The notes under the pieces: generated by a model | Databases searched by the model: none | What the model saw: only the letters and a program-made list of their open reading frames with translations | Told to the model about the DNA's origin: nothing | From: an uncultured Prevotella sp. | GTDB taxonomy: Bacteria > Bacteroidota > Bacteroidia > Bacteroidales > Bacteroidaceae | Assembly: GCA_900315545.1 (NCBI GenBank) | Contig: OMZM01000004.1 | Coordinates: 1-64,000, forward strand | Length of the DNA: 64,000 bases | Direction: 5' to 3' | Made by a program: the position numbers and the translations under genes | Shown: one piece after another, positions 6,925-63,723 of the stretch | Numbering within the stretch: the first letter of the stretch is position 1 | Layout: the number at the start of each line of letters is the position of its first letter

Positions 6925-7374
6925 TCAATTTTCGCCCATTTACTGTCGCGAGAGTGCCCTCGAAACCCGTTTTGAAAATCAGAGTGGCAAAATATGCTCA
7001 AAATTCGCGCTGCAACTGTAATTGCCTGACAGTCAGTTTGTTAGTTGCGAATGTAACGTTTGTGTGCAGGAAAAGTATATGTTAAAATTGTCAAAGAGCA
7101 TGTTTGAGATTGTCAAACAGTGTGTTTGAGGATGCCAAACATAGTGTTTGGGGGTGTAAGGCATTGTGTTTTGCAGGGCAATATAGGCGAAATAGGAGCC
7201 TCAAACATACTCTTTGACATTTTTAACAGTTGTGTTTGGGCTTGAAATTAACAGATTTTTACACATTCAGAGGTTAAATTTATTCTATTTGGAGAGTTTT
7301 TCCCTGTCAAAATTTTTCATCGTTTTTCGGTTCGGAAGAATAATCTGATGAGTTTGGCACAGTTTTTGCTGTAA
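6925..7374 (+). repeat. Dispersed intergenic element, copy A (CAAACA type)
   Basis: This is one of six related elements in the window. In this orientation it starts near ATAATCAATTTTCGCCC, has a conserved TTTACTGTCGCGAGA block, a central ladder and a right flank ending in GAGTTTGGCACAGTTTTTGC. In the ladder, units of the form CAAACA-n-TGTTTG recur every 22 bp (TGtCAAA/TGcCAAA boundaries near 7089, 7111, 7133, 7155), and the outer GTCAAAGAGCATGTTTGAG is mirrored by CTCAAACATACTCTTTGAC at 7200-7218. There is no open reading frame of note. It lies between the divergent radA and substrate-binding protein genes. Confidence 0.8.
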
Positions 7375-7472
7375 GAAAAATAACGTGCATCGAAGAATGC
7401 AGAAAATGATGCTTATATGGACTTATGATAATAAATAATGTAACGAAATGCCCGAAATAGAAAAAATAGCAT

Positions 7473-7481
7473 TAACTTTGC
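7473..7481 (+). promoter_or_regulatory. -7 promoter element deciding a start codon
   Basis: TAACTTTGC matches the TAnnTTTG consensus. It lies downstream of an in-frame ATG at 7448, so that ATG would not be in the transcript and the ATG at 7508 is the likely start of the next gene. Confidence 0.6.
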
Positions 7482-7507
7482 AGTCAATATTCGCTTACGG
7501 AAGGAAA

Positions 7508-8380
7508 ATGAAACATATATACAAACCATTATCAACCATGCTGTTGTCGCTGCTGCTGATAGCCTGCAACGGCAGCGAAACGGCTCCGGAAGCCGTCAGC
7601 CGCAAAAAAACACAGGCAGAAGACCTGAACACGATAAACGTGGCAGTCATGCCCACGCTCGACTGCCTGCCACTGTACGTAGCAGAAGCGTCAGACATGT
7701 TCAGCCGAAATGGACTGAGCGTAAACCTCATGACCTACACATCTCAGATGGACTGCGACACAGCCATACAGCGCGGATGGGCAGGTGTGTCTGTCAGCGA
7801 CAAGATTAGGGCAGACCGCATGGCTACCGCAGGAACCGAGCTGCAATATCTGTTTTTCACAGACACCTACTGGCAGCTCATTGCCAACAGCCGCAGCCGC
7901 ATACACGAGACATCGCAACTGTGCAACAAGATGGTAGCCATTACGCGCCACTCGGCAACCGACACCTATGCCACAATGCTCATAGGCAGGGCAAGGGCTA
8001 AGGCAGACATCTTCAAGGTGCAAGTGAACGACGTGTCAATACGCCTGAAGATGCTGCAAAACAATTCCGTCGATGCAGCAATGCTTACCGAGCCATACGC
8101 CACAATAGCACGCCGGAACGGACACAACGTGCTGGCAGACAGTCGTAACGACGGCTTACGATATGGCGTGTTCGTCGCTGCGGAACAGTTTTCGCGACAG
8201 GCGGCATACAGACAGAAACTCGACAAGATGAAGGAGATATATGACTTGGCATCTGACTCGGTAAGGAAATATGGCTACTTGCACTATAAAGACATACTCA
8301 GGGACAAGTACCGACTGACAGAAGGAAACATAAAAATGCTTGAGAAAGACCTCTGGCATAAGACAAACGACAAGAAATAG
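7508..8380 (+). CDS. ABC-type substrate-binding lipoprotein (NMT1/THI5-like)
   Basis: This 290-residue protein has a lipoprotein signal peptide (TMLLSLLLIAC, lipobox Cys about residue 20) and then a periplasmic-binding-protein fold. TINVAVMPTLDCLPLYVAEA starts the mature domain, in the style of NMT1/THI5 or SsuA proteins, and DAAMLTEPYATIARRNGHNV is the typical second-lobe hinge. Ligands of this class include pyrimidine precursors, aliphatic sulfonates and nitrate; the ligand here cannot be told. No permease or ATPase gene is adjacent, which is unusual. Four bases downstream a TPR protein begins, suggesting an operon whose partner is structural or regulatory rather than a transporter. Confidence 0.7.
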   Translation: MKHIYKPLSTMLLSLLLIACNGSETAPEAVSRKKTQAEDLNTINVAVMPTLDCLPLYVAEASDMFSRNGLSVNLMTYTSQMDCDTAIQRGWAGVSVSDKIRADRMATAGTELQYLFFTDTYWQLIANSRSRIHETSQLCNKMVAITRHSATDTYATMLIGRARAKADIFKVQVNDVSIRLKMLQNNSVDAAMLTEPYATIARRNGHNVLADSRNDGLRYGVFVAAEQFSRQAAYRQKLDKMKEIYDLASDSVRKYGYLHYKDILRDKYRLTEGNIKMLEKDLWHKTNDKK

Positions 8381-8384
8381 AACG

Positions 8385-10589
8385 ATGACTATGGAAGGAT
8401 ATGAGAACGGAAAGTTCCGCACGATATATAAGATGCTGACAAATGGCGAGCTCGGAACAGCCATGGCGGAATATGAAAAGGTGTCGGCAGACATGGTAAA
8501 CCCGCTGCTGCAAGAGCGTTTTCAGCAGATATGCAACGACTATCGGCTGATGCTCGACTTCCTGCTGCGCGGCTTCAGGGACACCGAGCGCGACCGGCTC
8601 TACAGTCAACTCATAGTACGCTTCGACCAGCTCGTTGCCGATACCGACATGAATATGCAGACCGAAAACAGCCAGATGTTTGCCAACATAAAGAAAAACC
8701 TTGCAGCCTTCAGCGCACAGCATGATGAAGTATACGGCAGGCTGGAGGCGTTTGTTACCGACATGGCAATGACGGAACTGGAAGAAGAAGCCATACAGGA
8801 CCTGAAACAAAAGGACCTGTACGAACGACACTATTCCTTCATGTCGAAACTGTTTGAGCATATCTGGCTCTCTTCACAGTGGAGCGACGACGACATGGCG
8901 GCTTACGAGAGGCTGCTGCTGTCGCCGACAATCGAACGCAATGACATTATGCTCATACTGAGTGCCGTTTTCCTTGCCAACTCGCAGTGTTTCGATGCGC
9001 GAAAGACACTGCTGATGGTCAACATTTCGGCAAAGGCAACAGACGAACACATACGCCAGCGTGCGCTGGTGGGATGGGCGCTGACACTCGACGAGCGCAT
9101 GTCGCTCTATCCGCAGCTGACCGACGCCATACGGGAATACTGCGGCAACGACGGCAACACACAGCAGCTGGTGGAACTGCAGAAGCAACTCTATTTCTGC
9201 CTGAATGCAGAACGCGACAACGAGGCTATACAGAAAGACATAATGCCCGACATCATAAAGAACAGCAACCTTAACATTACGCGTTTCGGTATAGAGGAAA
9301 AAGACGAAGACACACTGCAAAACATACTAAACCCTGAGGCTCAGGAAGAAGCCATCGACAAGGTGGAACAGAGTTTCCGCAAGATGGTGGAGATGCAGAA
9401 AGCAGGCTCTGACATTTATTTCGGCGGTTTTTCGCAGATGAAAAGGTTTTCCTTCTTCTTCCAGACGGCAAACTGGTTTGCACCGTTCGACGTAAATCAT
9501 CCTGCAATAAAGCATGTTACGGGCAGCGGAAAGCAGACAGCCTTCATCCAGGCACTGCTGAAAAGCGGACCGTTTTGCGACAGCGACAAATACTCATTCG
9601 TGCTCGCCATGTCGAACGTCTTTGACCGTTTGCCAGACAATATAAAGGAAATGATGAACGGCGAAAGCATGTTTGAGGTCTACAACGCAAGCCAGGATAC
9701 CGAGTCGCCGGTGTATATACGACGTATGTACTTGCAGGACCTGTACCGCTTCTTTAAACTTTATACCAACAAGCAGCTGCTGCACAATCCGTTCAACAGT
9801 CAGCATGGCAAGCGGGGGACGGCTCTCTTCATAGACCACAGTGTGTTCTGCGGAACGATAGCTGACGACCGCTATACGGAGATAGGGCAGTTTCTGCTGA
9901 GAAGGAACAACACGCGGGAAGCCTGGAGCATGATAGAACGTTTACGGGAAATACAGTCTGACAGTCTCTTGGAACTGCGTGCGCAGTGCCTTTACATGCA
10001 GGGAAAGGGCGAGGAAGCAGAAATGCTGTACAGAAAAGTTGTGGAGAAAAATCCCGACGATGCCAAAGCAATATCGGCACTGGCAAAGATAACATTTCAG
10101 ACAGGAAGATACGACGAGGCAGTGGAATACTATAAACACTTGCAGCAGCAGTATCCCGACAAGTTATCATACCAGCTGAACTACTGCGTTGCACTGTCGA
10201 AGACTCCACAAGTGGCTGAGTCGATAGAGACGCTGTACAGACTTTACTATGAAAACCCAGACAACCACAATGTGCTGCGGGTGCTGGCGTGGAACCTGTT
10301 GGTAGCCAAACGTACCGAACAGGCAGGCACAGAATATGAAAAACTGCTGCAAATAGGCGATCAAAAGGCAGAAGACTGGCTGAACGCAGGATATTACTAC
10401 CTGATAGTTCGCAACGTCGAGAAAGCAGTAGCCATGTTCAGACGCTACGTGGAAGAAAGCAAGTCTGCACAGGATGCACGACATCTGATAGGCAAGCAGA
10501 TAGCTGCCGATGCTGACGTTTTGCTTGAAAATGGTATCGACAAGATAGAGATGCAACTCATAGTCGACCTCGTTATGGAGTCGATGTAG
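8385..10589 (+). CDS. Large tetratricopeptide-repeat protein
   Basis: This 734-residue protein without a signal peptide is helical throughout. Clear TPR units occupy the C-terminal third, for example LRAQCLYMQGKGEEAEMLYR, ALAKITFQTGRYDEAVEYYK and the repeats that follow, and the N-terminal half has diverged helical repeats. No enzymatic motif is seen. TPR proteins are scaffolds, so a role in assembling a complex is the only inference possible. The ATG at 8385 is chosen because it is 4 bp after the preceding stop, with a second ATG at 8391; the frame also extends upstream inside the previous gene. It converges with the AddB-like gene 7 bp away. Confidence 0.65.
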   Translation: MTMEGYENGKFRTIYKMLTNGELGTAMAEYEKVSADMVNPLLQERFQQICNDYRLMLDFLLRGFRDTERDRLYSQLIVRFDQLVADTDMNMQTENSQMFANIKKNLAAFSAQHDEVYGRLEAFVTDMAMTELEEEAIQDLKQKDLYERHYSFMSKLFEHIWLSSQWSDDDMAAYERLLLSPTIERNDIMLILSAVFLANSQCFDARKTLLMVNISAKATDEHIRQRALVGWALTLDERMSLYPQLTDAIREYCGNDGNTQQLVELQKQLYFCLNAERDNEAIQKDIMPDIIKNSNLNITRFGIEEKDEDTLQNILNPEAQEEAIDKVEQSFRKMVEMQKAGSDIYFGGFSQMKRFSFFFQTANWFAPFDVNHPAIKHVTGSGKQTAFIQALLKSGPFCDSDKYSFVLAMSNVFDRLPDNIKEMMNGESMFEVYNASQDTESPVYIRRMYLQDLYRFFKLYTNKQLLHNPFNSQHGKRGTALFIDHSVFCGTIADDRYTEIGQFLLRRNNTREAWSMIERLREIQSDSLLELRAQCLYMQGKGEEAEMLYRKVVEKNPDDAKAISALAKITFQTGRYDEAVEYYKHLQQQYPDKLSYQLNYCVALSKTPQVAESIETLYRLYYENPDNHNVLRVLAWNLLVAKRTEQAGTEYEKLLQIGDQKAEDWLNAGYYYLIVRNVEKAVAMFRRYVEESKSAQDARHLIGKQIAADADVLLENGIDKIEMQLIVDLVMESM

Positions 10590-10596
10590 CGCAAGT

Positions 10597-13464
10597 CTAT
10601 ATCTTGCATATATCGAAATAAGGACAGATCATGCACCTTGACGGTTTCGATGTAGGCTTAAACGGCTTGTCCTTGTCGAAGATGTCGGCAATGGTATTAT
10701 CTATGTAAGTCATAAATTCATCCTCATATTCTTTAATATCTTTGATTTCGTCTTTCCCAAACTTCAGTGTCGGGTCGTAATTGCTGCTCGACGAACGCTG
10801 AATGAAGAGTAGGGCAGGGCTTACAGGCAGGTCGTTGGCATTGTATTTCTCAGAGTTTCTGACTATTGACGCATACAGCATGGTTTGCAGGAAATAGTCG
10901 CTGTGCTTCTCAATGTTGTCGTCGACGAACACATCTTCTACGCTGTTTATTCTCTCAGGCACGGAATGACCGGTTTTATAGTCAATAACGCGAATTCTGT
11001 TGCCATCATCCGGCGTGCTGATCATGTCCAGCCGGTCAATCTTACCACATAGACTGAGGTTAATCTTTTCGCCCTTCGCACTGTCAAAACTGTAATCTTT
11101 CTGCACCTCTTTTTCCAGTCCTATGATGCAGAAAGGAGCCAGTTTTAAGTCATTGCGAAGCAGTTGCACCAGATAGTTGGTTATCACTTCCCTGTTGATA
11201 AGTTGCAGTCCGTTGTATTCCGGTATCTGTTTGTCATTCTCGTTAAGTTTGAACAGTTCCCGCTTGAATGCACTGTCGACAGCCATGACAATCCTCTCCT
11301 TATGCTTGATGAGATACTCTATCTGTTGCTTTTCTATCGTCCCGTTTTCACTCTTGATAGAGTTGTATAGGATTTCTGCAGCATAGTGGAATATGTTTCC
11401 AAACATTCGGTTGTCAATGCTGTCCTCATCATACTCGTCAAGTTCCCTTATACGTGCCAGTTTGCTGTAGAAAAAACGCTTCTGACAGCGCAGGTAGCAG
11501 TTGATGTCGGTAGGGTATATGCGCTTCAGGCTATTCAGTTTGCTGACGACAGTATCGTCTTTGGCTATCTCGCGGTTGGTTGACGAAACAGGAGAAAGCT
11601 CTGTCTTGATGTTCTTTCTGGTAATGTCGTGATTCGATTCCACCATCATTTGCAGCATGAATCGGCTCATCTCGTTCATGTGTCCAGACTCGGTAGAGTT
11701 GTTGTAGATAATGGTTATATCCTTCGCCCTTTGTATCAGACGATAGAAATAATAAGCATATATTGCAACTTTGTTGTCGATTGTAGTAAGTTCAAACGAC
11801 TTCTTGACAGAATACGGAATAAAGCTGTTGTCGTGAAGTGATTTCGGCAGTTTGCCCTCGTTGCATGAAAGAATGAGCAGATGCTCAAAGTCGAGGTTGC
11901 GAGTTTCGAGCACTCCCATGATCTGCACACCCTTTATTGGCTCTCCATGAAAAGGAATGGATGTTGAAGATATAATCTGCTGCAACAGTCTCTGGTATGT
12001 GTTGTTGTCTACAACGAGGTCGTTGTCGGCAATAAGAGTATACAGTCTGTTTAGCAGGGTATATGTCCTGAACACCGACTCCTGAAAGAACGCATCGTCG
12101 GGAAGCATCTCTTTGCCGCGAGTGGCTATCTTTTCTACAATCTTTATAAGCCATTCCGTCATCGAGAGATTATAGTTGTCAGTGTCGATGTCGCCGAACA
12201 GAATGCTCAGCGACTCATTCTCGCACAGTTCAGCCTTATTCGGGAAATAGCGTTTCTTAGTGTTTAAGTCATCGTAGAGTTGCTTTGCATCCTCAGAAAC
12301 AAGACTTATGTATGAATGGCGGAGTATGTTGTTGACGTGTTTTAGCCTATACTTGTCAGTGTTTTTCACCTTTCCCACTGTTTGCAATTTTATCAACAGG
12401 CTTATGAAAGATGCTATAGGTGTCTGATTTAGAGGGTATCCTGATGTGATGTTTATTTCTTTTGCTTTATCCGGCAGGCAGTGTGTGATAGTTTGCAGCA
12501 GTCCCTCGTTGCACAAGACAATAGCCGTTTTGCGTCCGGCATCAATGCGTTCATCGGTAAGCCATTGTGCAACATATCTTCCCTGAGCGTTCTCAGTGGG
12601 CGAACTTATGTAGGTTATGTTTTTCGGAGCATTGAAATTACTGTAGATATTGTCGTCGTTTGAGTCCAGTTCGTTAGTAAACGACTGCATGTTTTGGTTG
12701 ATAAATCGTCCTGCCTCATGCTGCGAATTGCAGTAATAATAGTCAAAATCCCAGTAAAACTTGGCACAATCGTCGTGTTGCAGGCGTGAAAAAAGCATCT
12801 TTTCGCTTTTCTGCAATAAGTTGAAACCAACAAAAAGATACAGCTTGTTCTTGAGTTTCATGTCTTTCTTGTTGACAACTTCGCGATAGAGTGCACCCTC
12901 GTATGTCAGGTTTTGCTTGTTAAGACGGTTGTTGAAGTCAACATATACATCGTAAAGACAGTTCCAAAGTCTGAGAAAACGCTCGCGCAACTTGCTGTTG
13001 TGGTCGTCGGTAAACTGGCTGAAAAACTGTTTCAGGGTTTCTTTCTGTTCATCGCTGAGATAGTCGATGCTGTCAAATTCATGCAGGTTGGCGACGTTGT
13101 TGAAAATCATTCTGGCATCTGCCATGTTCTTGTCTATGTCGTCGAAGTCGGACAAAAGCAGTTGACCCCAGCCGTAGAACTCATCAAGCGTTTCGTTGCT
13201 TTTGGTAATTTCTACGTAGCTGTGGTACAGTTCGCATATCAGTTTTATCTCATCGGGTATGACGTAGTCCGACATTGAGTGCAGCAGCTCGTTTATTGTA
13301 ATGTATGACGGACTCCAAATCGGCTTGTCAGATATATCTGCAAAAGCCTGATTTAGGAAGAGAGCAGCCCTCTTGTTAGGGAATACGACAGTTATGTCTG
13401 ATAGGTTTGTGCCATATTTCTCAAGTATATCGTTGGCTACATATTTTATAAATGTATTTTCCAT
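10597..13464 (-). CDS. AddB-like PD-(D/E)XK nuclease subunit
   Basis: The 955-residue protein has an inactivated-helicase-like N-terminal half (DITVVFPNKRAALFLNQAF, DISKPIWSPSYITINELL region) and a C-terminal RecB-family nuclease domain with the motif RVIDYKTG. Cysteines at CYLRCQKRFFY and the terminal CMICPYFDIC give the C plus C-x2-C-x5-C pattern that binds a 4Fe-4S cluster in AddB. Together with the adjacent AddA-like helicase it should form a double-strand-break resection enzyme. It is shorter than Bacillus AddB (about 1,160 residues), as is usual in Bacteroidota. It lies 25 bp downstream of its partner in the same operon. Confidence 0.8.
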   Translation of the reverse strand: MENTFIKYVANDILEKYGTNLSDITVVFPNKRAALFLNQAFADISDKPIWSPSYITINELLHSMSDYVIPDEIKLICELYHSYVEITKSNETLDEFYGWGQLLLSDFDDIDKNMADARMIFNNVANLHEFDSIDYLSDEQKETLKQFFSQFTDDHNSKLRERFLRLWNCLYDVYVDFNNRLNKQNLTYEGALYREVVNKKDMKLKNKLYLFVGFNLLQKSEKMLFSRLQHDDCAKFYWDFDYYYCNSQHEAGRFINQNMQSFTNELDSNDDNIYSNFNAPKNITYISSPTENAQGRYVAQWLTDERIDAGRKTAIVLCNEGLLQTITHCLPDKAKEINITSGYPLNQTPIASFISLLIKLQTVGKVKNTDKYRLKHVNNILRHSYISLVSEDAKQLYDDLNTKKRYFPNKAELCENESLSILFGDIDTDNYNLSMTEWLIKIVEKIATRGKEMLPDDAFFQESVFRTYTLLNRLYTLIADNDLVVDNNTYQRLLQQIISSTSIPFHGEPIKGVQIMGVLETRNLDFEHLLILSCNEGKLPKSLHDNSFIPYSVKKSFELTTIDNKVAIYAYYFYRLIQRAKDITIIYNNSTESGHMNEMSRFMLQMMVESNHDITRKNIKTELSPVSSTNREIAKDDTVVSKLNSLKRIYPTDINCYLRCQKRFFYSKLARIRELDEYDEDSIDNRMFGNIFHYAAEILYNSIKSENGTIEKQQIEYLIKHKERIVMAVDSAFKRELFKLNENDKQIPEYNGLQLINREVITNYLVQLLRNDLKLAPFCIIGLEKEVQKDYSFDSAKGEKINLSLCGKIDRLDMISTPDDGNRIRVIDYKTGHSVPERINSVEDVFVDDNIEKHSDYFLQTMLYASIVRNSEKYNANDLPVSPALLFIQRSSSSNYDPTLKFGKDEIKDIKEYEDEFMTYIDNTIADIFDKDKPFKPTSKPSRCMICPYFDICKI

Positions 13465-13489
13465 GTTATGTTTCTGTTTAGATGTTTCT

Positions 13490-16702: not shown

Positions 16703-16767
16703 CTTTTTTCTCGTGTCAGGTAATGATTTCGGTTTTGCGTAGATACTGTGCGCAATACTTTCCACTG

Positions 16768-16775
16768 CAAAAATA
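16768..16775 (-). promoter_or_regulatory. -7 element of the addAB-like operon
   Basis: TATTTTTG on the minus strand, about 65 bp before the ATG at 16702, rules out the longer upstream reading frame. Confidence 0.5.
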
Positions 16776-16930
16776 AGAAAAAAACTTGTAATACGAAAGA
16801 TAATTTGCATGTCATCTTTATGTCGGCGCAATAATAAATTCAGTTTCGGTTTCAGAATTCGGATTTTCCAACGAATTATTATGCCGTGCACGGTGTTACT
16901 GTCTGCGCGAAAAAGTTAATTCCATGACCT

Positions 16931-17361
16931 TACAGCAAAAAGTGTGCCAAACTCATCTGATTTTTCTTTCGAGCCGAAAAACGATGAAAAATTTTGACAG
17001 GAAAACCCTCTCCAAATAGAATCGGAACAGCCTACGAAAGTGCCAAAATATGCAAAAATCGTCCTCAGATATGCGTGTTAAAAATGTCAAAGAGCATGTT
17101 TGAGGCAGGTAACGGCATGTTTTCGTGCGATTACAGTTAAGCCATCATATCGTTACAGAGTATTTGTAAGGGTGTGACGGAGTATCTGTAATAGGATTAC
17201 AAGATGCTTGTAAAAATCCTGTAATCCATATTTGAGAGTCAAAGCGTTAACAGTCAGCGACTTATACAACAAGCGAAAATACTCGCGTATTTGCCGAAAA
17301 ATATTTCGGAACGACTTTCGCGGGCATTCTTGCGACAGTAAACGAGCCAAAATTGATTATA
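16931..17361 (-). repeat. Dispersed intergenic element, copy B (TTACA type)
   Basis: The flanks match copy A in the opposite orientation (CAGCAAAAAGTGTGCCAAAC at the left, GCGACAGTAAACGAG at the right). The centre differs: TTACAG, TTACAG, TGACGG and TTACAA words begin at 17131, 17153, 17175 and 17197, exactly 22 bp apart, each followed by a TGTAA half. The first CAAAGAGCATGTTTGAG unit is retained at 17088. It lies between the addAB-like operon promoter and the rpoD terminator. Confidence 0.8.
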
Positions 17362-17449
17362 CTTTTCTTTGTCAGCTCAGACTTCCGGAGTTCTAAACAT
17401 TGTGTTTCCATCATCCAAATGCAAATAATGAATACTCGAAAAACCGTGC

Positions 17450-17487
17450 AAAAAAATAAAGTTGCCTGGTTTCACTCAGACAACTTT
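17450..17487 (-). terminator. rpoD terminator
   Basis: AAAGTTG at 17458-17464 pairs with CAACTTT at 17481-17487, with an extended stem. On the minus strand it is followed by TATTTTTTT, 40 bp after the rpoD stop. Confidence 0.7.
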
Positions 17488-17531
17488 ACAAAATATCAAT
17501 GAAAAATTATTTGTATTATTCCCGATGCGGC

Positions 17532-25847: not shown

Positions 25848-25917
25848 CCTTACGTAGTGCAACATATAATTTATTTTTCTGCGTTGTTTTGCATGAAAAA
25901 TAAGTTGATTTTTTCAT

Positions 25918-26368
25918 ACAGCAAAAACCGTGCCAAACTCATCGGAATTTTCTTTTGAGCCGAAAAATGATGAAATTTTTTGACAGGGAAAAACTCTCAA
26001 AATAGAATTGGAACAGCCTCTGAAAGTGCAAAGTTATGTTAATTTCAGAGTCGTCGGTAAGTGTTAAAATTGTCAAAGAGTACCTTTGAGGCGCCTATTT
26101 CGTCTATTTTGCCATGCAAAACGCTATGCCCGACACCCCCAAACACCATGTCTGACCTCCTCAAACACACTGTTTGACAATGTCAAACATGCTCTTTGAC
26201 AATATTAACACTTGCATTTCGCCTATAAATCGCTTGTATATGACGCTATCGCCATGACTGTCAGACAATTACAGAAACATGCAAAATACTCGCGTATTTT
26301 GCCCCTCAGATTTCCGAAACGACTTTCGAGGGCATTCTCGCGACAGTAAACGAGCAAAAAATGATTAT
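25918..26368 (-). repeat. Dispersed intergenic element, copy C (CAAACA type)
   Basis: Same orientation as copy B, same central words as copy A. TCAAAC/CCAAAC word starts lie at 26139, 26161 and 26183 (22 bp apart), with a further unit 22-23 bp before. GTCAAAGAGTACCTTTGAG at 26071 mirrors TCAAACATGCTCTTTGAC at 26183. It fills the gap between the convergent membrane protein gene and valS. Confidence 0.8.
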
Positions 26369-26383
26369 ATATTTATGAGCAAA

Positions 26384-35208: not shown

Positions 35209-35337
35209 CTACTTTTGTTTCATATATTCGTATTTTTGTCGTATTAAGATTATTTTTCCGACATATAATCATGTATCGCAGCCAATGTCAAAGTCAGCTC
35301 GTGGCTCATTCTCAGTGCCTCGATGACGCTGAAATGT

Positions 35338-35789
35338 ATAATCAAATTTTGCCCGTTTACTGTCGCGAGAATGCCCTCGAAAGCCGTTTCGGAAATCTGA
35401 GGGACAAAATACGCCCAAAATTTGCATACGTCTGCAACTCTTTGATAGTCAGTTTGTTAGTCGTAAATATGGCTATTGTGTGCAGGAAAAGTATATGTTA
35501 AAATTGTCAAAGAGCATGTTTGAGATTGTCAAACAGTGTGTTTGAGGAGGTAAAACACTATGTTTGGTGGTGTCGGGCATAGCGTTTTGCATGGAGAAAA
35601 AGACGAAATAGCCGCCTCAAAGGTACTCTTTGACATTTTTAACATTTATCGCCGACTCTGAAATTAACATAACTTTGCACTTTCAGAGGCTGTTCCGATT
35701 CTATTTGAACTATTTTTCCCTGTCAAAATTTTTCATCATTTTTCGGCTCAAAAGAAAATTCTGATGAGTTTGGCACACTTTTTGCTGTG
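35338..35789 (+). repeat. Dispersed intergenic element, copy D (CAAACA type)
   Basis: Same orientation as copy A and close to it in the flanks. The central ladder starts with GTCAAAGAGCATGTTTGAG and AACAGTGTGTTTGAG and closes with CTCAAAGGTACTCTTTGAC. Located between the divergent GHL10 gene and cstA. Confidence 0.8.
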
Positions 35790-35908
35790 ATAAAATTCCT
35801 GTGTCCGAAAATCATATATTTTGCGCATATAATTCCACATATTGATAATTTACTGATAGAAAATCGTTCAAATTTCCGAATAAATTTTGCAGTTTGCATA
35901 GTTAATCG

Positions 35909-40794: not shown

Positions 40795-40868
40795 GGTGCG
40801 TTAGTTCAGTAGGTTAGAATGCCTGCCTGTCACGCAGGAGGTCACGAGTTCGAATCTCGTACGCACCG
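40795..40868 (+). tRNA. tRNA-Asp (GTC), first copy
   Basis: A 74-nt cloverleaf with acceptor stem GGTGCGT/ACGCACC, D-arm TTAGTTCAGTAGGTTAGAA, anticodon loop CTGTCAC with anticodon GTC, variable loop AGGTC and T-arm GAGTTCGAATCTC. CA follows the discriminator G. Confidence 0.96.
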
Positions 40869-40886
40869 CAATCTTAAAGCCTTTTT

Positions 40887-40960
40887 GGTGCGTTAGTTCA
40901 GTAGGTTAGAATGCCTGCCTGTCACGCAGGAGGTCACGAGTTCGAATCTCGTACGCACCG
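40887..40960 (+). tRNA. tRNA-Asp (GTC), second copy
   Basis: Identical in all 74 bases to the first copy, 18 bp downstream, and in the same transcript. The exact identity implies recent duplication or gene conversion. Confidence 0.96.
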
Positions 40961-40980
40961 CAGAAACAACACTAAATATA

Positions 40981-51489: not shown

Positions 51490-51628
51490 AATTTTAAAAT
51501 AAATGATTTGCCGACAAATATAGTCAAACTTTTATAAATACCCAATTATGGCACGGATTATTTCGCGATGTATGCATTTTTTTTTGAAAAAGTTCAAATT
51601 TGCATGTTTCAAAGTCAGGTTTTGAGAC

Positions 51629-52082
51629 TTACAGCAAAAAGTGTGCCAAACTCGACGAGTATTTCTTTCAGCATCAGTTTTGTGATTTTTTTTTGACAGA
51701 CTAAAACTTGCGAAAGAGATGTTAACAAGTCTTTCGTTTGGTGAATTTCAGTAAAAATCAAAGCCGGCGATAATTGTTAAAATTGTCAAAGAGTATCTTT
51801 GAGGTGTCTATTTCGCGTTTTTTGCCCTGCCATACACAGTGTCAGACACACCCAAACACTATGTCTGACATCCTCAAACAGTGTGTTTGACATTGTCAAA
51901 CATGCTCTTTGACAATTTTAACACTACTGTTTCTTGCACAAAATGCTTATATTTCTCGATAACATTCTGATGGTCAGATAATTAAGATTGTATGTAAATT
52001 TTGGGCATATTTTGCAGCTTTTATGCTCGCAACGACTTTCGCGGGCATTCTCGCGACAGTAAACAGGCGAAAATTGATTATA
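51629..52082 (-). repeat. Dispersed intergenic element, copy E (CAAACA type)
   Basis: Same orientation as copies B, C and F. The core has CAAACAGTGTGTTTG and GTCAAACATGCTCTTTGAC, with outer GTCAAAGAGTATCTTTGAG at 51786. The left flank is the most diverged of the six (TCAGCATCAGTTTTGTG instead of the usual GAGCCGAAAAACGATG). It lies between the divergent SDR and DNA ligase genes, with about 200 bp of AT-rich sequence before the ligase. Confidence 0.75.
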
Positions 52083-52289
52083 CCTTTTATTTCTGTCAGA
52101 CACATATCACGGCATGAAAACCATGCAATTTACACTGCGAAAATAAAGCGCAACATGCGAAAAAATGAAAATTATACTGCGATAATCTTTCGTGATTTCG
52201 GAAAAATAACTAACTTTACAACCAATTTACGGCATTGTCATGATATTCAGGTGTCATGACACAGAAAACCATGTAATCTGATAACAGTA

Positions 52290-54329: not shown

Positions 54330-54387
54330 GAGAAACAATGAGGGCGAGAATATTTTTTCAACGAATAATAATAACACATAAACAAAT

Positions 54388-56637: not shown

Positions 56638-56650
56638 AGATATATAACAG

Positions 56651-56724
56651 GGATGTGTCGAGATGAAGTGAACCCCGAAAGTTAGACAAAAAACTTTCGG
56701 GGTTCACTTCATCTCGACACATCC
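56651..56724. terminator. 33-bp perfect inverted repeat, bidirectional terminator
   Basis: 56651-56683 is perfectly complementary to 56692-56724, with an 8-nt loop (AGACAAAA). T-rich sequence follows on the plus side. It lies between convergent genes (GH20 and a small lipoprotein). The length is far beyond a usual terminator stem. The central TGAACCCCGAAAGTTAGACA recalls IS3-family terminal repeats. Confidence 0.75.
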
Positions 56725-56747
56725 TATTTCTTTTGTTTTGTCTGTTT

Positions 56748-57131
56748 TTACTGATTCTTGAATGCAATGATTCCTTTGCGACTCTTGTCAAAGTAAAACG
56801 TCTGTATGGTTTTCTTCTTGACGCTGCTGTCGCTTTTCTTCTGATAAGACAATCGAACATAATATAACTTTTCCTGATTGTCGTATGAAGCATATTCAAT
56901 ATTCTCGTTGAAGTCAGAATCATGACTCATTATGTCGTGTAACTGTTCAATTTGTTGTTTGCCGATATGGCTTGTGGAGTCAAACTTCTGTACCTTCACC
57001 GACGAATAATCGCACTTCATATTCTTATCGAGAAAATCAGTAGCCAGCGTTTTGGCTTTATGTTCATCACTGCATGATGTTGTAGCCAACAGTATGCAGA
57101 AACTAAATATGCTTATCAGTTTTTTCTTCAT
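56748..57131 (-). CDS. Small lipoprotein, unknown
   Basis: This 127-residue protein has a lipoprotein signal (IFSFCILLATTSC, Cys about residue 20) and then a short mature alpha/beta domain rich in Lys, Ser and Asp, with an ending FYFDKSRKGIIAFKNQ. It resembles small Bacteroidales lipoproteins of unknown function. No domain is recognised. It is 9 bp downstream of pepD on the same strand, and is ended by the long hairpin at 56651-56724. Confidence 0.6.
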   Translation of the reverse strand: MKKKLISIFSFCILLATTSCSDEHKAKTLATDFLDKNMKCDYSSVKVQKFDSTSHIGKQQIEQLHDIMSHDSDFNENIEYASYDNQEKLYYVRLSYQKKSDSSVKKKTIQTFYFDKSRKGIIAFKNQ

Positions 57132-57140
57132 ATTTGAATA

Positions 57141-58598: not shown

Positions 58599-58724
58599 AC
58601 TTTTTATATAATTATTTAGTGTAAAATCACAATAAAAACTACAACTTTCTTTATGTAACTATAATGTAATACAAAAAAAATATTTAAATTTGCAGCGACA
58701 AAGTTACGATTAAGTGAGCAAAGT

Positions 58725-58842
58725 ACCAAATTTATTTGCGACTTTCAAGTGTGAGTAACTTATATAAAGTTACGATACACCGCTTGTAAAACCAAATTTA
58801 TTTGCGACTTTCAAGCGTGAGTAACTTATATAAAGTAGCGAT
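58725..58842 (+). repeat. Pair of 52-bp direct repeats in intergenic region
   Basis: 58725-58776 and 58791-58842 match in all but a few positions (CAAGTGTG against CAAGCGTG, AAAGTTACGAT against AAAGTAGCGAT), with a period of 66 bp. A partial third unit, AAGTTACGATTAAG, lies at about 58701. It is upstream of a small membrane protein gene and may hold binding sites or duplicated promoters. Confidence 0.7.
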
Positions 58843-58874
58843 TAAGAGTAAAAAAAGGAAAAAATACATATATA

Positions 58875-59069
58875 ATGATAGCAACCCTTGTGGCAAGTCT
58901 GGTAATAGTAGCATTGGCTGTACTCATGTTGTCAGTCAAGGTTATAGTCAAGAAGAACGGTAAGTTCTCGTCGCAGCATGTACATGACAACAAAGCTTTT
59001 AGAGAACAGGGCATTGACTGCGTAGTGGAGCAAGACCGACAGGCTCGCCGAAACAACAAGGCAATGTAA
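58875..59069 (+). CDS. Small single-pass membrane protein
   Basis: The 64-residue protein has an N-terminal membrane helix (LVASLVIVALAVLMLSV) followed by basic KVIVKKNGKFSSQHVHDNKA and a polar tail with one Cys (GIDCVVEQD). It matches in outline a small Bacteroidales membrane protein with a GKF-x-x-x-H-V and G-I-x-C pattern and unknown role. The next gene, an OmpH-like lipoprotein, follows by about 37 bp. Two direct repeats lie in its leader. Confidence 0.6.
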   Translation: MIATLVASLVIVALAVLMLSVKVIVKKNGKFSSQHVHDNKAFREQGIDCVVEQDRQARRNNKAM

Positions 59070-59106
59070 GAATAATAAGAAATAATAACATAAAAAGTAA
59101 ATGACA

Positions 59107-59718
59107 ATGAACAAGAAGAATTTATTTTGCACGGTAGCTGTGGCTACAATGTCTGCTTTTATCATGTCGTCTTGCAACAAACAAGATGCAAAAATGGACG
59201 AAAAGAGTCCTAAAACAGAAACCAAGTCAGAAATGAAGATTGCATATATTGAGATTGACTCAATTATGACTCAGTATAATTTCTGCAAGGATTATTCTAA
59301 AATATTGGAGCAGAAGGGACAGAATATTCAGAAGACTATAGCCCAGAAAGGACAGGCATTGCAAAACGCAGCAGTCAAGTTCCAGCAGGATATTCAGGCA
59401 AACAAATATACGCGTGAGCAGGCTGAGGCAGTGCAGGGCAACCTTCAGAAGCAAGACAACGACTTGCAGATGCTGCAGCAGCGTCTGGGCAACGAGTTCC
59501 AGACAGAGACAGACAAGTACAACAAGGCTCTGCGCGATTCGATACAGAACTTCCTTACTAAATATAATAAGGATAAGAAGTACACTTTTATATTGAGCAA
59601 GGTTGGCGACAACATGCTTTATGCAGACAAGAGTTGCGACATAACAGAGGAAGTTATTGCAGGTCTGAACAAGGCATATAAGGGAACTGCCAAGAAAACA
59701 GAAGAAAAGAAGAAGTAA
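59107..59718 (+). CDS. OmpH/Skp-like lipoprotein
   Basis: The 203-residue protein has a lipoprotein signal (MSAFIMSSC, Cys about residue 23) and an OmpH-family domain: MKIAYIEIDSIMTQYNF at the start of the mature core, a long coiled-coil rich in Gln (ILEQKGQNIQKTIAQKGQAL, MLQQRLGNEFQ) and a closing YTFILSKVGDNMLYAD strand. Skp/OmpH proteins are periplasmic chaperones for outer-membrane proteins; here it is lipid-anchored. A Lys-rich end follows. nth begins 5 bp later. Confidence 0.85.
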   Translation: MNKKNLFCTVAVATMSAFIMSSCNKQDAKMDEKSPKTETKSEMKIAYIEIDSIMTQYNFCKDYSKILEQKGQNIQKTIAQKGQALQNAAVKFQQDIQANKYTREQAEAVQGNLQKQDNDLQMLQQRLGNEFQTETDKYNKALRDSIQNFLTKYNKDKKYTFILSKVGDNMLYADKSCDITEEVIAGLNKAYKGTAKKTEEKKK

Positions 59719-59723
59719 AACGT

Positions 59724-60359
59724 ATGAAACGCACTGAACGTTATCAATACGTATTGAATTATTATAGAGAACAAATGCCGAAAGTCACTACTGAACTGCA
59801 GTTTGGTAGTGTCTTTCAGCTTTTGGTGGCTACGCTGCTCAGTGCGCAATGTACCGATAAGCGCATAAACCAAGTTACACCGGCACTGTTTCGGCAGTAT
59901 CCAGATGCAGCCTCAATGGCTAAGGCTGACGAGACGGAGCTGTTTGAATACATAAAAAGCGTGTCTTATCCTAATGCCAAAGCGCGCCATCTTGCTCAGA
60001 TGGCGAGAATGTTGGTAGATGAATATGATGGCGAAGTACCGACAGACTTCAACGACCTGGTACGTCTGCCGGGTGTTGGTCGCAAGACCGCAAATGTTGT
60101 AGAGGCAGTTGCCTACGGTCAAGCCTCGATGCCGGTAGATACCCATGTCTTCAGGGTCAGCCATAGGCTTGGACTTGTCTCAAAGTCGGCAACGACACCA
60201 TATCATGTTGAGCAGGAACTCGTTAGAAACATTCCGCAGGACGATGTGGCAAAAGCACACCACTGGCTGTTGCTGCACGGCAGGTATATCTGCACGAGTA
60301 GGAAACCTCATTGCGAGAAATGTCCTTTCGACAGTTTCTGCCCCAAAAACATAAAGTAA
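59724..60359 (+). CDS. nth: Endonuclease III
   Basis: Nth removes oxidised pyrimidines and cuts the abasic site. The 211-residue sequence shows LLSAQCTDKRINQVTPALF, the helix-hairpin-helix LPGVGRKTANVV with the catalytic Lys, the catalytic Asp in VDTHVFRVSHRLGL, and the 4Fe-4S ligands C-x6-C-x2-C-x5-C in CTSRKPHCEKCPFDSFC. Full length. It is placed between the OmpH-like gene and the DUF2461 gene with gaps of 5 and 7 bp. Confidence 0.96.
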   Translation: MKRTERYQYVLNYYREQMPKVTTELQFGSVFQLLVATLLSAQCTDKRINQVTPALFRQYPDAASMAKADETELFEYIKSVSYPNAKARHLAQMARMLVDEYDGEVPTDFNDLVRLPGVGRKTANVVEAVAYGQASMPVDTHVFRVSHRLGLVSKSATTPYHVEQELVRNIPQDDVAKAHHWLLLHGRYICTSRKPHCEKCPFDSFCPKNIK

Positions 60360-60366
60360 AAAGATT

Positions 60367-61065
60367 ATGCAGTCTAAAAGAATAATATCGTTTCTGCGCG
60401 AGCTTTCCAAGAACAACAACCGTGAATGGTTTTATGAAAACAAGCCTGAATATCTGGCATGCAGGAAAAGTTTTGAAGATGATATCGCTAAGGCAATAGT
60501 TCATATTTCGGAGTTCGACAGCTCCATTTCCCATATAACAGTCAAGGATTCTACATATCGTTTCAACCGCGACACAAGGTTTTCGCAGGATAAGTCACCA
60601 TATAAGAATCATCTCGGTGCATATATTGCTGCTCATGGAAAGAAAGCCATGCATGGCGGTTACTATATACATGTAGAGCCTGGCTACTGCATGCTTTCGT
60701 GCGGAAACTATTGGCTGCCGACAAATGTGCTGACAGCATGCCGCAATGAAATTATGGCTAATATCGACGAGTGGCGCGAGTGTGTAGAGAACAAGCATTT
60801 CAAAAAACTCTTTGGCGAGCCTGGCAAGAGTACATGGGGCGACAAAAAGGGTTTTGGATTGGAACATCTGAAAAGTTGTCCTACGGGATTTCCGCGAGAT
60901 TATGAGTTTATAGAATATCTCAGGATGAAGAATTACTGCTGCTGGACTACTGTGGATGAGGATTTCTTCGAGGGCGACAGATGGTTCGACAAGATGAAAG
61001 AGATCTTCAAGGTTGGCAAGCCAATGATGGATTTCATAAACAATGTTATCGACGACTACGAGTAG
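60367..61065 (+). CDS. DUF2461 family protein
   Basis: The 232-residue protein has the DUF2461 (TIGR02453) layout: FLRELSKNNNREWFYENKPE at the start, YRFNRDTRFSQDKSPYKNHL, GGYYIHVEPGYCMLSCGNYW, and LEHLKSCPTGFPRDYEFIEY. Function is unknown. Members are common in Bacteroidota, plants and actinobacteria. It is the last gene of the plus-strand run from 58.9 kb and is followed by convergent transcription. Confidence 0.9.
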   Translation: MQSKRIISFLRELSKNNNREWFYENKPEYLACRKSFEDDIAKAIVHISEFDSSISHITVKDSTYRFNRDTRFSQDKSPYKNHLGAYIAAHGKKAMHGGYYIHVEPGYCMLSCGNYWLPTNVLTACRNEIMANIDEWRECVENKHFKKLFGEPGKSTWGDKKGFGLEHLKSCPTGFPRDYEFIEYLRMKNYCCWTTVDEDFFEGDRWFDKMKEIFKVGKPMMDFINNVIDDYE

Positions 61066-61144
61066 ACATGCTCGTAATCGTTATTGTCGTAGTATTTAAT
61101 ATAGAAGGGTAGGCGACGGCTTGTCTGTCTATGAAAAAAGAAAA

Positions 61145-61169
61145 ACCGCTAAACTTAGAGTTTAGCGGT
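61145..61169 (-). terminator. Terminator of small lipoprotein gene
   Basis: ACCGCTAAAC at 61145-61154 pairs with GTTTAGCGGT at 61160-61169 around a 5-nt loop. On the minus strand it is followed by TTTTTCTTTTTTC. It can also stop transcripts from the DUF2461 gene. Confidence 0.8.
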
Positions 61170-61215
61170 CGTCGTTTACTGTTTTAATAAGCAGTAGACT
61201 TTTTTGCAACTTAGC

Positions 61216-61404
61216 TTATTTAGCCTGTGCAGTTGTGTCAACAGCAGTTGTATCAACGTTAGTTGTGTCAAGAGAATCAGTAGCCATTGAGTCAACAACT
61301 TCGAGAGAGTCGCCTTCTACTACAGGAGCTTCTGTTTTGTTCTCGTTACATGCAACAAATGACATAGCTACGAAAGCTACAGCTGCGAATAAAATCTTTT
61401 TCAT
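61216..61404 (-). CDS. Small acidic lipoprotein rich in Asp and Thr
   Basis: This 62-residue peptide has a lipoprotein signal (MKKILFAAVAFVAMSFVAC) and a mature part of about 43 residues dominated by Asp, Thr, Val and Ser, with a repeating VDTTAVDTT pattern. It has no folded domain. Such tiny lipoproteins with a strong promoter are often highly expressed in Prevotella and Bacteroides. The ATG at 61404 fits a minus-strand TACCTTTG at 61457-61464. The GAACAAAACAGA region just after the Cys gives a short polar linker. Function is unknown. Confidence 0.7.
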   Translation of the reverse strand: MKKILFAAVAFVAMSFVACNENKTEAPVVEGDSLEVVDSMATDSLDTTNVDTTAVDTTAQAK

Positions 61405-61456
61405 TTCTTTTTGCTTTTTAAATCTGTAAAACAATCATTAGTTTATTAAAACGTTG

Positions 61457-61464
61457 CAAAGGTA
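61457..61464 (-). promoter_or_regulatory. -7 element of small acidic lipoprotein
   Basis: TACCTTTG on the minus strand, 53 bp before the ATG at 61404. The 150 bp beyond it are very AT-rich with no gene. Confidence 0.5.
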
Positions 61465-61639
61465 AATATTTTTTTAATACCGCGTGCTATTTTTAGCAAT
61501 TATTTTTCACTGAAATTTCAATATCCTTGTAAATGGCTGATAATCAGTAATTTGCTAATAGTGAAATAATGTTAATAAAACGACGGGGTTTCTCTTTACA
61601 GGTGTTTACATATTAAAATATTTACTATCTCAAACATTT

Positions 61640-62419
61640 TCAGTCGTCGTAATCGTCTTCCACTTCTGCAGATTCGAGGCTCAGATCTTCCGGTTCGGTC
61701 TCAAATGTAGTGCGATAGCTTTCTTCCAGCATCTGTTCCTCGTCGTATTCGTCGTCAAAGCCGTCGTCGTCCAGCAGGTCGTTGTCGAGTTCGTCGTCAT
61801 CTTCGTTACGCTTGTGTTCGTTTACGTCTATTATCATTTTTTCCGTTTCCGGCTTCAGCTTGGCGAAAATGGCTTCCACCCATCCTCCTTTTTCTATTTC
61901 GAGGACTTCAAAACCGTCTTCCACTTTCTTTTCGTACATGCCTCCTGGCTTTTTCAGTCTTTCCTTTGGCAGTGTAGTGGTGCTTATGTCGAATCCGCTT
62001 TCAATGATGTCTTTGATGCTTTGCGATATGCTTTCCCATCCGCCGCCAAAGTTTCGGTCTATGACTTCGAGCAGTTTGCTTGCCGTGATGTGTCTGATGT
62101 TTTCGTATGTCAGGTCGGTTATTCTGGTTATAGGTCGTTTCTTTATAGCCCATTTTTTCTTTTCGTCATTTACGTTGACGGCAGCAACCTTGAAGTTCAG
62201 CCCTTCATATTTCTTTATAACCTCCTTTTTGTCTATCTGCACTTCTTCTATTAAGAATGCAGTTTTGAAGATATCGACATAGTGGTTGAAGTTTTCCTTA
62301 AACTCAGCGTTCTTGCTTGCTGTTGTCAGCATTCGGAAAACGTCATTTTCCTGTATGTCCCAAACATTGCTCTTATTGAGGTTTTTCAGTGTCAGTGTTT
62401 TGTTGTCAGATGATTTCAT
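61640..62419 (-). CDS. Cytoplasmic protein with acidic tail, unknown
   Basis: The 259-residue protein has no signal peptide. Residues 1-190 form a mixed alpha/beta region (SNVWDIQENDVFRMLTTASK, ITDLTYENIRHITASKLLEV, FGGGWESISQSIKDIIESGF), and the last 55 are extremely acidic with runs of Asp and Glu. Acidic tails often mimic nucleic acid or bind basic partners, but that is only inference. I know similar hypothetical proteins in Bacteroidales, with no assigned role. It lies 23 bp downstream of the nitrilase-family gene on the same strand. Confidence 0.55.
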   Translation of the reverse strand: MKSSDNKTLTLKNLNKSNVWDIQENDVFRMLTTASKNAEFKENFNHYVDIFKTAFLIEEVQIDKKEVIKKYEGLNFKVAAVNVNDEKKKWAIKKRPITRITDLTYENIRHITASKLLEVIDRNFGGGWESISQSIKDIIESGFDISTTTLPKERLKKPGGMYEKKVEDGFEVLEIEKGGWVEAIFAKLKPETEKMIIDVNEHKRNEDDDELDNDLLDDDGFDDEYDEEQMLEESYRTTFETEPEDLSLESAEVEDDYDD

Positions 62420-62442
62420 ATTTTGTTTTTATATATTCTATA

Positions 62443-63201
62443 TTACATTATTATATTAAAGTTGTCCTTGTCGTTGAGAACCTGAAACTTGTTTCTGAAG
62501 TTGTCGAGCGATTCTCTTGATATTACGGCAGTGATAATTTCTTCGCCGTCGGTAGTATTTGCGGCTATATTCTTTCCCTTAGCATCTATTATGAAGCTGC
62601 CCCCGATGTAGTTGCATTGTGGGTCTTTGCCAGTTCTGTTGGCTGCAATGACGTAGCATTGGTTTTCCATAGCCCTTGCCGTCAGCAGTGTTTCCCAAAC
62701 CCTTTGCCTTGAGTCAGGCCAGTTGGCTGCTATTATTATTGCGTCATAGTCGTTGTTGTTTCTGCTCCATACGGGGAAGCGCAGGTCATAGCATGTCAGC
62801 AGCAAAATCCTGTATCCTTTCCATTCCACTACGACGCGCCTGTCGCCAGCCGTATAGTTCTTGTCTTCGCCTCCATAGCTGAACAGGTGTCTTTTGTCGT
62901 AGTATTGGTATGTCCTGTCAGGATATACAAAATAGTGTCGGTTGCGGTAGTCCTTGGCGTATATCGATACCGTTCCGCTTATGGCAGCATCGAGTCTTTC
63001 TGCCATGTCCTGCATCCACAGCAGCGACTGGTTTTCTGTTTCTGCAATGCCTTCAGGCGATGTGGCAAATCCTGTGCTCCACATTTCCGGAAGCACATAA
63101 ATATCGCTTTTCTCAGCTTTCTCCATGAGTTTGGCTGCATGTCTTGCGTTTTCCTCAGGATTAGCCCAGATAATATCTGTCTGAAGTATGCTTATTTTCA
63201 T
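62443..63201 (-). CDS. Nitrilase-family amidase (omega-amidase YafV-like)
   Basis: The 252-residue carbon-nitrogen hydrolase has the catalytic triad in its usual places: Glu in LPEMWSTGF, Lys in YYDKRHLFSYG and Cys in LLLTCYDLRFPVW. It most resembles YafV/Nit2-type omega-amidase, which hydrolyses alpha-ketoglutaramate. Full length. The ATG at 63201 is chosen because MKISILQTDI is the standard family start. The start lies 94 bp from an intergenic repeat element. It is probably co-transcribed with the acidic-tail protein. Confidence 0.85.
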   Translation of the reverse strand: MKISILQTDIIWANPEENARHAAKLMEKAEKSDIYVLPEMWSTGFATSPEGIAETENQSLLWMQDMAERLDAAISGTVSIYAKDYRNRHYFVYPDRTYQYYDKRHLFSYGGEDKNYTAGDRRVVVEWKGYRILLLTCYDLRFPVWSRNNNDYDAIIIAANWPDSRQRVWETLLTARAMENQCYVIAANRTGKDPQCNYIGGSFIIDAKGKNIAANTTDGEEIITAVISRESLDNFRNKFQVLNDKDNFNIIM

Positions 63202-63294
63202 AAATAGTGCAGTTGAATGCTGCAAAAATAAGGACTTTATCTGTTTTGTACAAGTTTTTCAATATATTTTTTCCAAATATGTTAATAATGTGCC

Positions 63295-63723
63295 CAGCAA
63301 AAAGTGTGCCAAACTCGTCAGGTTTTTCTGTTGAGCCGAAAAACGATGAAAATTTTTGACAGGGAAAACCTCTCCAAATAGATGCGGAACAGCCTCCGGA
63401 AGTGATAAAATATGCAAAATTCACCCTCAAATATGCGTATTAAAAATGTCAAAGAGCATGTTTGAGGCAGGAAACTGCACATTTTCGTGCAGTTACAGCT
63501 AAGCCGTCATATCGTTACAGAGTGTTTGTAATGGTGTGACGGAGTATCTGTAAGAGGATTACAAGATACTTGTAAAAATCCTGTAATCCATATTTTAGAG
63601 TCAAAGCGCTAAAAGTCAGCAACTTAGCCAACAAGCGAAAATACTCGCGTATATGCCGAAAAATATTTCGGAACGACTTTCGCGGGTATTCTCGCGACAG
63701 TAAAAACGAGAAAAATGATTAAA
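63295..63723 (-). repeat. Dispersed intergenic element, copy F (TTACA type)
   Basis: Most similar to copy B: the central words TTACAG, TTACAG, TGACGG and TTACAA begin at 63493, 63515, 63537 and 63559, exactly 22 bp apart, each paired with TGTAA. It lies between the divergent amidase and rarA genes and ends 41 bp before the rarA -7 element. Confidence 0.8.

Follow-up and report, generated by a model that had tools for sequence, protein, structure and literature searches.

The DNA considered here, hereafter the window, is the 64,000-nucleotide stretch at positions 1 to 64,000 of contig OMZM01000004.1, from an uncultured Prevotella sp. (assembly GCA_900315545.1). It carries six intergenic copies, A to F, of a repeat element, of which A and D lie on the plus strand and B, C, E and F on the minus strand. 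A preliminary description, made from the sequence alone, had placed six intergenic copies at these sites with a central ladder of palindromes repeated every 22 bp, and both observations are confirmed. The window copies have in common a left block opening TAATCA and TTTACTGTCGC, the central ladder, and a right block that ends in a predicted sigma-54 promoter directed out of the element. This promoter, a second palindrome subtype (TTACA), the genome-wide family to which the copies belong and the regular spacing of its members were all absent from the preliminary description. The features of the six copies are as follows.

6917..7379, plus strand: copy A, TCAAA type (profile match, columns 5-460, at 6919-7375)
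7091..7217, plus strand: copy A ladder, six 17-bp slots at 7091, 7113, 7135, 7157, 7179 and 7201; slot 5 non-palindromic
7353..7369, plus strand: copy A predicted sigma-54 promoter TTTGGCACAGTTTTTGC, outward from the right end
16925..17368, minus strand: copy B, TTACA subtype, 22 bp shorter (profile match)
17087..17213, minus strand: copy B ladder, likewise on the 22-bp lattice; TTACA type in slots 1-4, TCAAA type in slot 6
16935..16951, minus strand: copy B predicted sigma-54 promoter
25911..26376, minus strand: copy C, TCAAA type (profile match); its promoter aims at a convergent gene end
26073..26199, minus strand: copy C ladder
25921..25937, minus strand: copy C predicted sigma-54 promoter
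35332..35795, plus strand: copy D, TCAAA type (profile match)
35507..35633, plus strand: copy D ladder
35769..35785, plus strand: copy D predicted sigma-54 promoter
51624..52087, minus strand: copy E, TCAAA type (profile match)
51786..51912, minus strand: copy E ladder
51634..51650, minus strand: copy E predicted sigma-54 promoter
63290..63730, minus strand: copy F, TTACA subtype, 22 bp shorter (profile match)
63449..63575, minus strand: copy F ladder
63297..63313, minus strand: copy F predicted sigma-54 promoter

Anatomy of the element and its right end

The element is 463 bp long in its main type and 441-442 bp in a second type with nine copies, which lacks 22 bp of the spacer on the ladder's left side. 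The ladder of each window copy consists of six 17-bp slots at exact 22-bp steps. Slots 1, 2 and 6 of copies A, C, D and E read TCAAA-N7-TTTGA, slots 3 and 4 carry degenerate forms, and slot 5 holds no palindrome. Copies B and F carry TTACA-N7-TGTAA-like palindromes in slots 1-4 and TCAAA-N7-TTTGA in slot 6. Across the main type, slots 1, 2 and 6 are nearly invariant, and in slot 5 the symmetry is gone and the length retained. Of 121 primary profile matches, 113 had enough flank aligned and 96 fell into a main cluster, in which dyad symmetry is strongest at columns 184, 206, 228 and 294. These four centres fall on a single 22-bp lattice; two further centres lie between them, at columns 195 and 217. 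The inner core (columns 165-313) is itself a TGT...ACA inverted repeat, with arms at 165-172/306-313 and 174-186/292-304.

Distances within the element are nearly fixed. Wherever the patterns concerned were found, the left block lies 144 bp from the first dyad (s1) in 82 of 84 main-type copies, s1 lies 109-110 bp from the last dyad (s6) in 101 of 103 copies, and s6 lies 153-155 bp from the TGGCAC of the promoter in 105 of 107; in the short TTACA subtype the left block stands 122 bp from s1, which is 144 less 22, in all eight cases. Between the TCAAA type and the TTACA subtype both arms of the palindrome are replaced together. The lattice is thus held while the palindrome is swapped, which is the behaviour expected of phased protein sites. 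The earlier suggestion that binding sites are displayed on one face of the DNA is well supported by the exact lattice, the fixed outer distances and the 22-bp-shorter subtype.

This rigidity accompanies considerable divergence. Median pairwise identity is 74% among the 113 aligned copies, and the 96 main-cluster copies differ from their consensus by a median of 79 substitutions over 463 columns; 55 of the 96 contain no indel and 37 more have indels of 1-2 bases. A check for gene conversion found identical tracts of up to 98 bp and linkage that declines with distance, for which the conserved blocks account in part. The longest stop-free frame has a median of 65 codons and a maximum of 97 in the 96 copies, which rules out a coding element and upholds the earlier statement that the copies hold no open reading frames (ORFs). 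By eye, short repeats like GGAACGATAACCTTAACG / GTTAACGTTAAC flank several copies (L016, L059, L100, L127, L128 and L250).

The right end reads TTTGGCAC-N2-TTTTTGC. The string TGGCAC-N5-TTG[C/T] is kept in 116 of 125 profile matches with a readable right flank, a set that includes one fragment and one copy matched twice, and conservation fades within about 7 bases beyond the -12 box. In the assembly (G000), 91 of the 93 exact TTGGCACRNTTTTTGC strings are element ends on the expected strand. One of the two others (C7:1057) is a right-end-like string at which the profile finds no element; the other (L257, C45:17155) stands, without a ladder, 33 bp upstream of a GrpE-like gene, whose product we take to be GrpE from its sequence (no family search).

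In 398 other genomes of the family the sigma-54 string occurs 0-3 times per genome. Of the loci outside the host genome that carry it, 18 were inspected, comprising all six from one search and 12 of 43 from another, and in 16 of them an ATG opening at least 70 codons on the same strand follows the string within 300 bp (a count made with no chance control). The genes that follow, judged from their sequences, presumably include two htpG, with rsfS, secA and clpC among the others; ahead of the htpG-like genes of two congeners the string stands with no ladder. At L270 and L274, two of these 18 loci, the string is preceded by a pair of dyads spaced 21 bp, with centres at about -83 and -62, which would represent the same design in small.

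The accessible part of one account gives the sigma-54 consensus as TGGCAC-N5-7-TTGCT and describes grpE as sigma-54-dependent in Bacteroidota (PMC12316311). On this comparison the right end of the element is predicted to be a consensus sigma-54 promoter. The host has the expected machinery: one strong match to RpoN, with a second only at the cut-off, and one enhancer-binding protein (L242) with a strong PF00158 match, the other listed matches being weak.

Number, spacing and genomic context of the copies

The assembly comprises 2,288,422 bases in 56 contigs and represents a 2.29 Mb Prevotellaceae genome; the nearest Prevotellaceae relatives of its ValS are about 80% identical, very near records possibly lying outside that search. 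A genome-wide search with flank sequence, as the preliminary description had proposed, revealed a large family. A 21-base piece of the left block gave 131 matches and a 22-base piece of the right end 69, each with up to 3 mismatches and with none in the reversed control, and a degenerate left-block pattern gave 135. Altogether 141 element sites were located, and then 2 more, making 143. Contig ends cut 17 of the 143, and there two sites may represent the halves of a single copy. Profile search of 137 loci of this genome, the window included, gave 104 full-length and 46 partial matches, the latter comprising 16 cut by contig ends, 19 that are TTACA copies in pieces, and 11 odd ones.

The site list is incomplete: about 95 kb of long gaps proved to hold 2 copies missed at first, and scanning the whole of contig C29 brought its copies to ten, two of them extra. 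Each of these four late-found copies lies at least 9 kb from its neighbours. The 330 kb scanned completely by profile (the window, all of C29, and C18 from 64.5 kb onward) contained 27 copies, which suggests a probable total of 140-190 copies, or about 3% of the genome. Of the 94 contig ends in the assembly, 25 lie within 600 bp of a copy, and the repeat seems to break the assembly.

The copies are regularly spaced. Only one of the 94 located same-contig gaps is shorter than 6 kb (3,845 bp), compared with 35.5 expected from uniform placement, which never gave fewer than 21 such gaps in 10,000 simulations; the coefficient of variation of the gaps is 0.52 against 0.95. Because missing copies could hide short gaps, the test was repeated on the fully scanned 330 kb. 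There, none of 24 gaps is under 6 kb (9.5 expected; never under 3 in 20,000 simulations), the shortest is 6,587 bp and the coefficient of variation is 0.41. A distribution of 92 gaps was compatible with an exponential offset by 6 kb (Kolmogorov-Smirnov p 0.18), less so with an offset of 5 kb (p 0.011) and not with a plain exponential (p 7e-10). One site, C7:618, was excluded from the spacing analysis as the profile found no element there.

An artefact of gene density was ruled out: when six intergenic positions are drawn at random in the window, a minimum gap as large as the one observed arises with P 0.00055. Neighbouring copies lie on the same strand in 45 cases and on opposite strands in 47, with similar shortest gaps save for the one of 3,845 bp, and this equality makes it less likely that the spacing arose by deletion between direct repeats. 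Two long gaps are low-GC stretches, in which five of the eight proteins inspected belong to polysaccharide-type families; two other long gaps turned out to hold previously missed copies. From these distances we infer that copies exclude one another within about 6 kb.

Orientation with respect to genes is near random. ORF calls gave both neighbours for 108 copies among the 121 profile matches, with 32 in divergent, 28 and 28 in tandem and 20 in convergent contexts; a stricter ORF set, in which 93 of the 96 main-cluster copies could be placed, gave 27, 26 and 20, and 15, respectively. The right-hand gene is co-directional in 54 of 90 copies, a mild excess, and in 49 of these 54 it lies within 350 bp. 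The promoter string is kept in 52 of the 54 copies that face a gene start and in 35 of the 36 that face a gene end, and box substitutions do not differ between the two groups (p 1.0). The splits of tandem contexts (28:28 and 26:20), together with promoters kept facing gene ends, led to the rejection of the copies as plain gene promoters. As to the claim that all copies are strictly intergenic, it stands for the six in the window; for the wider set it rests on the ORF check of the 121 matches, some of which overlap an ORF call; most of these calls span about 100 codons, and the three that are long were inspected and judged spurious.

Two ladder dyads at 22-bp spacing occur in none of 398 other family genomes, against 181 and 167 matches on the two strands of G000, so that the ladder exceeds what chance would give. 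With 3 mismatches allowed, the ladder's left arm was likewise absent from 398 congeners, a sample of a larger group, and gave 138 and 134 strand matches in G000; the left-arm search is blind to right-half remnants. One such remnant, in congener G005, consists of the right half only (columns 283-459) and lies near an IS3-type-like transposase ORF, facing the end of an hcp-like gene. We take these neighbours, from their sequences, to be an IS3-type transposase (without a family search) and hcp. The G005 contig ends beyond the insertion sequence, where the left half would lie. No copy beside hcp was present among the 137 loci of the host genome, which were examined as loci and not as a whole genome. 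Shorter likenesses comprise a 43-base match in another family, where no profile match was obtained. Two genomes of the host's family gave still shorter ones, of 28 and 24 bases (best two candidates per genome scored). The exact left-block string was not found in viral contigs, and blastn of copy C against plasmids and phages gave no match.

Other features of the window include a second repeat family (GTTGTTATTGCAGATGCAAAGATACTAATTTTAAAGCAAATCACAAC) with three to four copies at 842-3487, two identical tRNA-Asp genes in tandem at 40795-40961, a perfect 33-bp inverted repeat with an 8-nt loop at 56651-56724, and a tandem 52-bp repeat with 66-bp spacing and 94% identity at 58725-58842.

Interpretation of the cassette

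The arrangement of a left block, a dyad array on a strict 22-bp (two-turn) lattice and an outward promoter at a fixed distance may be read as dimer sites arrayed to work at the level of DNA and coupled to a sigma-54 promoter, an interpretation in which we place about even confidence. In the manner of bacterial enhancers, dimers of a regulator would occupy the ladder next to one another along one helix face and touch the sigma-54 RNA polymerase bound at the right end. What can be read in the DNA comprises the sites and their lattice, the constancy of the distances, the retention of the promoter, the number of copies, and their spacing and almost random orientation; the scheme supposes in addition that protein binds, that the promoter fires and that the ladder reaches the promoter by looping. 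As copies aim at the beginnings of genes as well as at their ends and keep one another out of a range of about 6 kb, the neighbouring gene is presumably not the main client. The cassette would either have a role on the scale of the chromosome or be a mobile element whose spread met local exclusion.

Several observations weigh against the coupled array. At none of the 18 inspected loci outside the host genome do the 330 bp ahead of the string contain TCAAA-N7-TTTGA or TTACA-N7-TGTAA. The helix-turn-helix (HTH) helix of the L242 enhancer-binding protein is much like those of 12 congeners, in which the ladder was not found, so that this protein is a doubtful partner for the ladder and may not be its binder; moreover, its GAFTGA loop reads GAFTSA, and 10 of the 12 congeners keep the glycine. 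Given the near-random orientation, a simple promoter role is unlikely. In the five palindromic slots G.T exceeds A.C by 390 to 39 (406 to 84 with slot 5), which hints at folding of one strand.

The last point leads to a structured RNA, which the preliminary description had also offered, in which the left-to-right strand would fold as a row of 7-bp hairpins inside a long stem. RNAalifold on 40 of the 96 copies gave -33.8 for the plus and -32.2 for the minus strand, against -2.4 (standard deviation 2.0) for 20 plus-strand column shuffles, but DNA palindromes would yield such a result too. The G.T excess is seen in slots 3, 4 and 6, A-to-G and T-to-C changes being alike outside the ladder (0.083 and 0.075); however, it is absent from other stems in a strand-symmetric scan and comes from an estimated seven or so independent columns. 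The joint replacement of both arms in the TTACA subtype would suit a stem, yet slots 1, 2 and 6 hardly vary in sequence and show no compensatory pair changes, and the long stem is lost in that subtype while lattice and promoter are kept. Rfam at gathering thresholds, applied to the window, matched two tRNAs and nothing in the copies, and the promoter faces away from the element, whose orientation to genes is near random. A structured RNA is thus quite improbable.

A non-autonomous transposon family is a more serious candidate, albeit a tentative one. The 22-bp sites would be transposase sites, as at Tn7 ends, the spacing would stem from target immunity during spread, and the anatomy would be kept because the transposase needs it. 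Such an origin is consistent with dispersed, intergenic, near-randomly oriented copies, with gaps that fit a 6-kb offset plus exponential as local exclusion would give, with the TGT...ACA inverted repeat of the inner core, and with the half-copy beside a transposase-like ORF in G005. For Tn7, the accessible part of one account describes inverted repeats of 22 bp at the ends, where TnsB has three and four sites (PMC8649781). In the element, however, the sites are internal and self-palindromic. By eye, 98 end profiles and 120 left-end rows gave no clear terminal inverted repeat, as noted earlier, only a GCAAAAA/TTTTTGC likeness between the ends that is weakly kept on the left. No clear target-site duplication emerged for k=3-10 at all offsets in 98 copies (best 7/98 against 1.65 expected, among about 9,800 tests), and a 4-bp flank match around the inner core was present in 0 of 96. 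The copies are old yet mostly intact, which, with the negative searches of viral contigs, plasmids and phages, counts against a transposon family. The preliminary description had named an intact related transposon with matching ends as the observation that would refute its own reading; none was found in the sequence scanned, nor was any larger copy or parent among the profile matches in the 137 loci (the genome was not surveyed for transposases).

An ordinary, much enlarged sigma-54 regulon, with each promoter driving the gene at its right end, would account for the consensus string and for the mild excess of close, co-directional right-hand genes. It is very improbable in view of the split tandem contexts, the promoters retained among the 36 of 90 copies directed at a gene end, and the grpE-like and htpG-like promoters that have no ladder, and it leaves the exclusion between copies unexplained.

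If the phased array is taken to the scale of the chromosome, more than 100 enhancer-like nucleoprotein units, one per 6-20 kb or so, would organise or insulate the nucleoid and not switch the neighbouring gene. This extension, itself rather unlikely, would make the palindrome, and perhaps its binding protein, exchangeable (TCAAA to TTACA) on a fixed lattice. A directional segregation signal is ruled out by the mixed strands of the copies (72 plus and 59 minus at 131 sites; neighbours 45 same and 47 opposite). Taken as a whole, then, the earlier interpretation keeps its phased array and loses directional segregation, and it had missed the sigma-54 promoter. Three features of the element together make the question of parasite or chromosome part directly testable: its predicted sigma-54 promoter can be recognised, its dimer sites stand on a fixed lattice that accepts either of two palindromes, and the distance over which copies exclude one another has been measured. 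If the spacing were functional, it would be a new way of marking stretches of about 10 kb along a bacterial chromosome.

Comparison with known systems

The element resembles sigma-54 promoters with enhancer sites, served by RpoN and bacterial enhancer-binding proteins, in its TGGCAC-N5-TTGC string with dyads upstream, and two relatives have paired dyads 21 bp apart. It differs from them in its six slots, its more than 100 dispersed near-copies and its near-random gene orientation. Transposon ends of the Tn7/Mu type carry terminal transposase sites and are associated with a 5-bp target duplication, and transposition immunity acting over a range, as in Mu, would give distance between copies. The element shares with them 22-bp sites (Tn7) and local exclusion between copies; unlike them, it has no clear terminal repeats, and no clear target duplication or parent was found in the searches described above.

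Repetitive extragenic palindromic (REP) sequences and bacterial interspersed mosaic elements (BIMEs) are intergenic palindromes in high copy number. The element is like them in both respects, but it is 463 bp long and rigid, has two unique outer blocks and often lies in divergent promoter regions. The view that it is neither a REP element nor a miniature inverted-repeat transposable element is supported, the terminal repeats and target-site duplication of the latter not being clearly seen.

Two other known repeats come nearer in kind. BrickBuilt of Porphyromonas gingivalis, in the accessible part of its description, is intergenic and dispersed, with a leader and a tail around a 23-nt tandem repeat; it has 19 copies, a repeat number of 1 to 22.8 and terminal inverted repeats, and in E. 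coli it shows outward-directed promoter activity (PMC4596501). The leader-repeat-tail plan and the outward promoter are shared, whereas a fixed 22-bp lattice, a ladder length fixed save in two outliers of 103 and the lack of clear terminal repeats are not; that part of the description mentions neither a sigma-54 string nor exclusion, both of which are present here.

PINSR of Prevotella intermedia, as far as its description was accessible, is intergenic, was judged non-coding, has 177 and 184 copies in two strains and no terminal inverted repeats, and is lineage-specific, thought older than the strains and of unknown function (PMC4755523). Like PINSR, the element has a Prevotella host and is intergenic, high in copy number, non-coding and without clear terminal repeats. 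It is 463 bp long where PINSR has a 188-bp consensus (a comparison by description, the PINSR sequence being in a figure), and the accessible description gives PINSR no palindrome ladder, promoter or spacing. For lineage-specific intergenic repeats of this sort function is open in the published accounts, so far as these were accessible. A literature search found no description of the element or of spaced sigma-54 cassettes, subscription journals lying mostly outside it. PINSR is the nearest in kind, followed by BrickBuilt, and in the parts of their descriptions available neither shows the fixed 22-bp dyad lattice, the predicted sigma-54 end or the mutual exclusion of the element.

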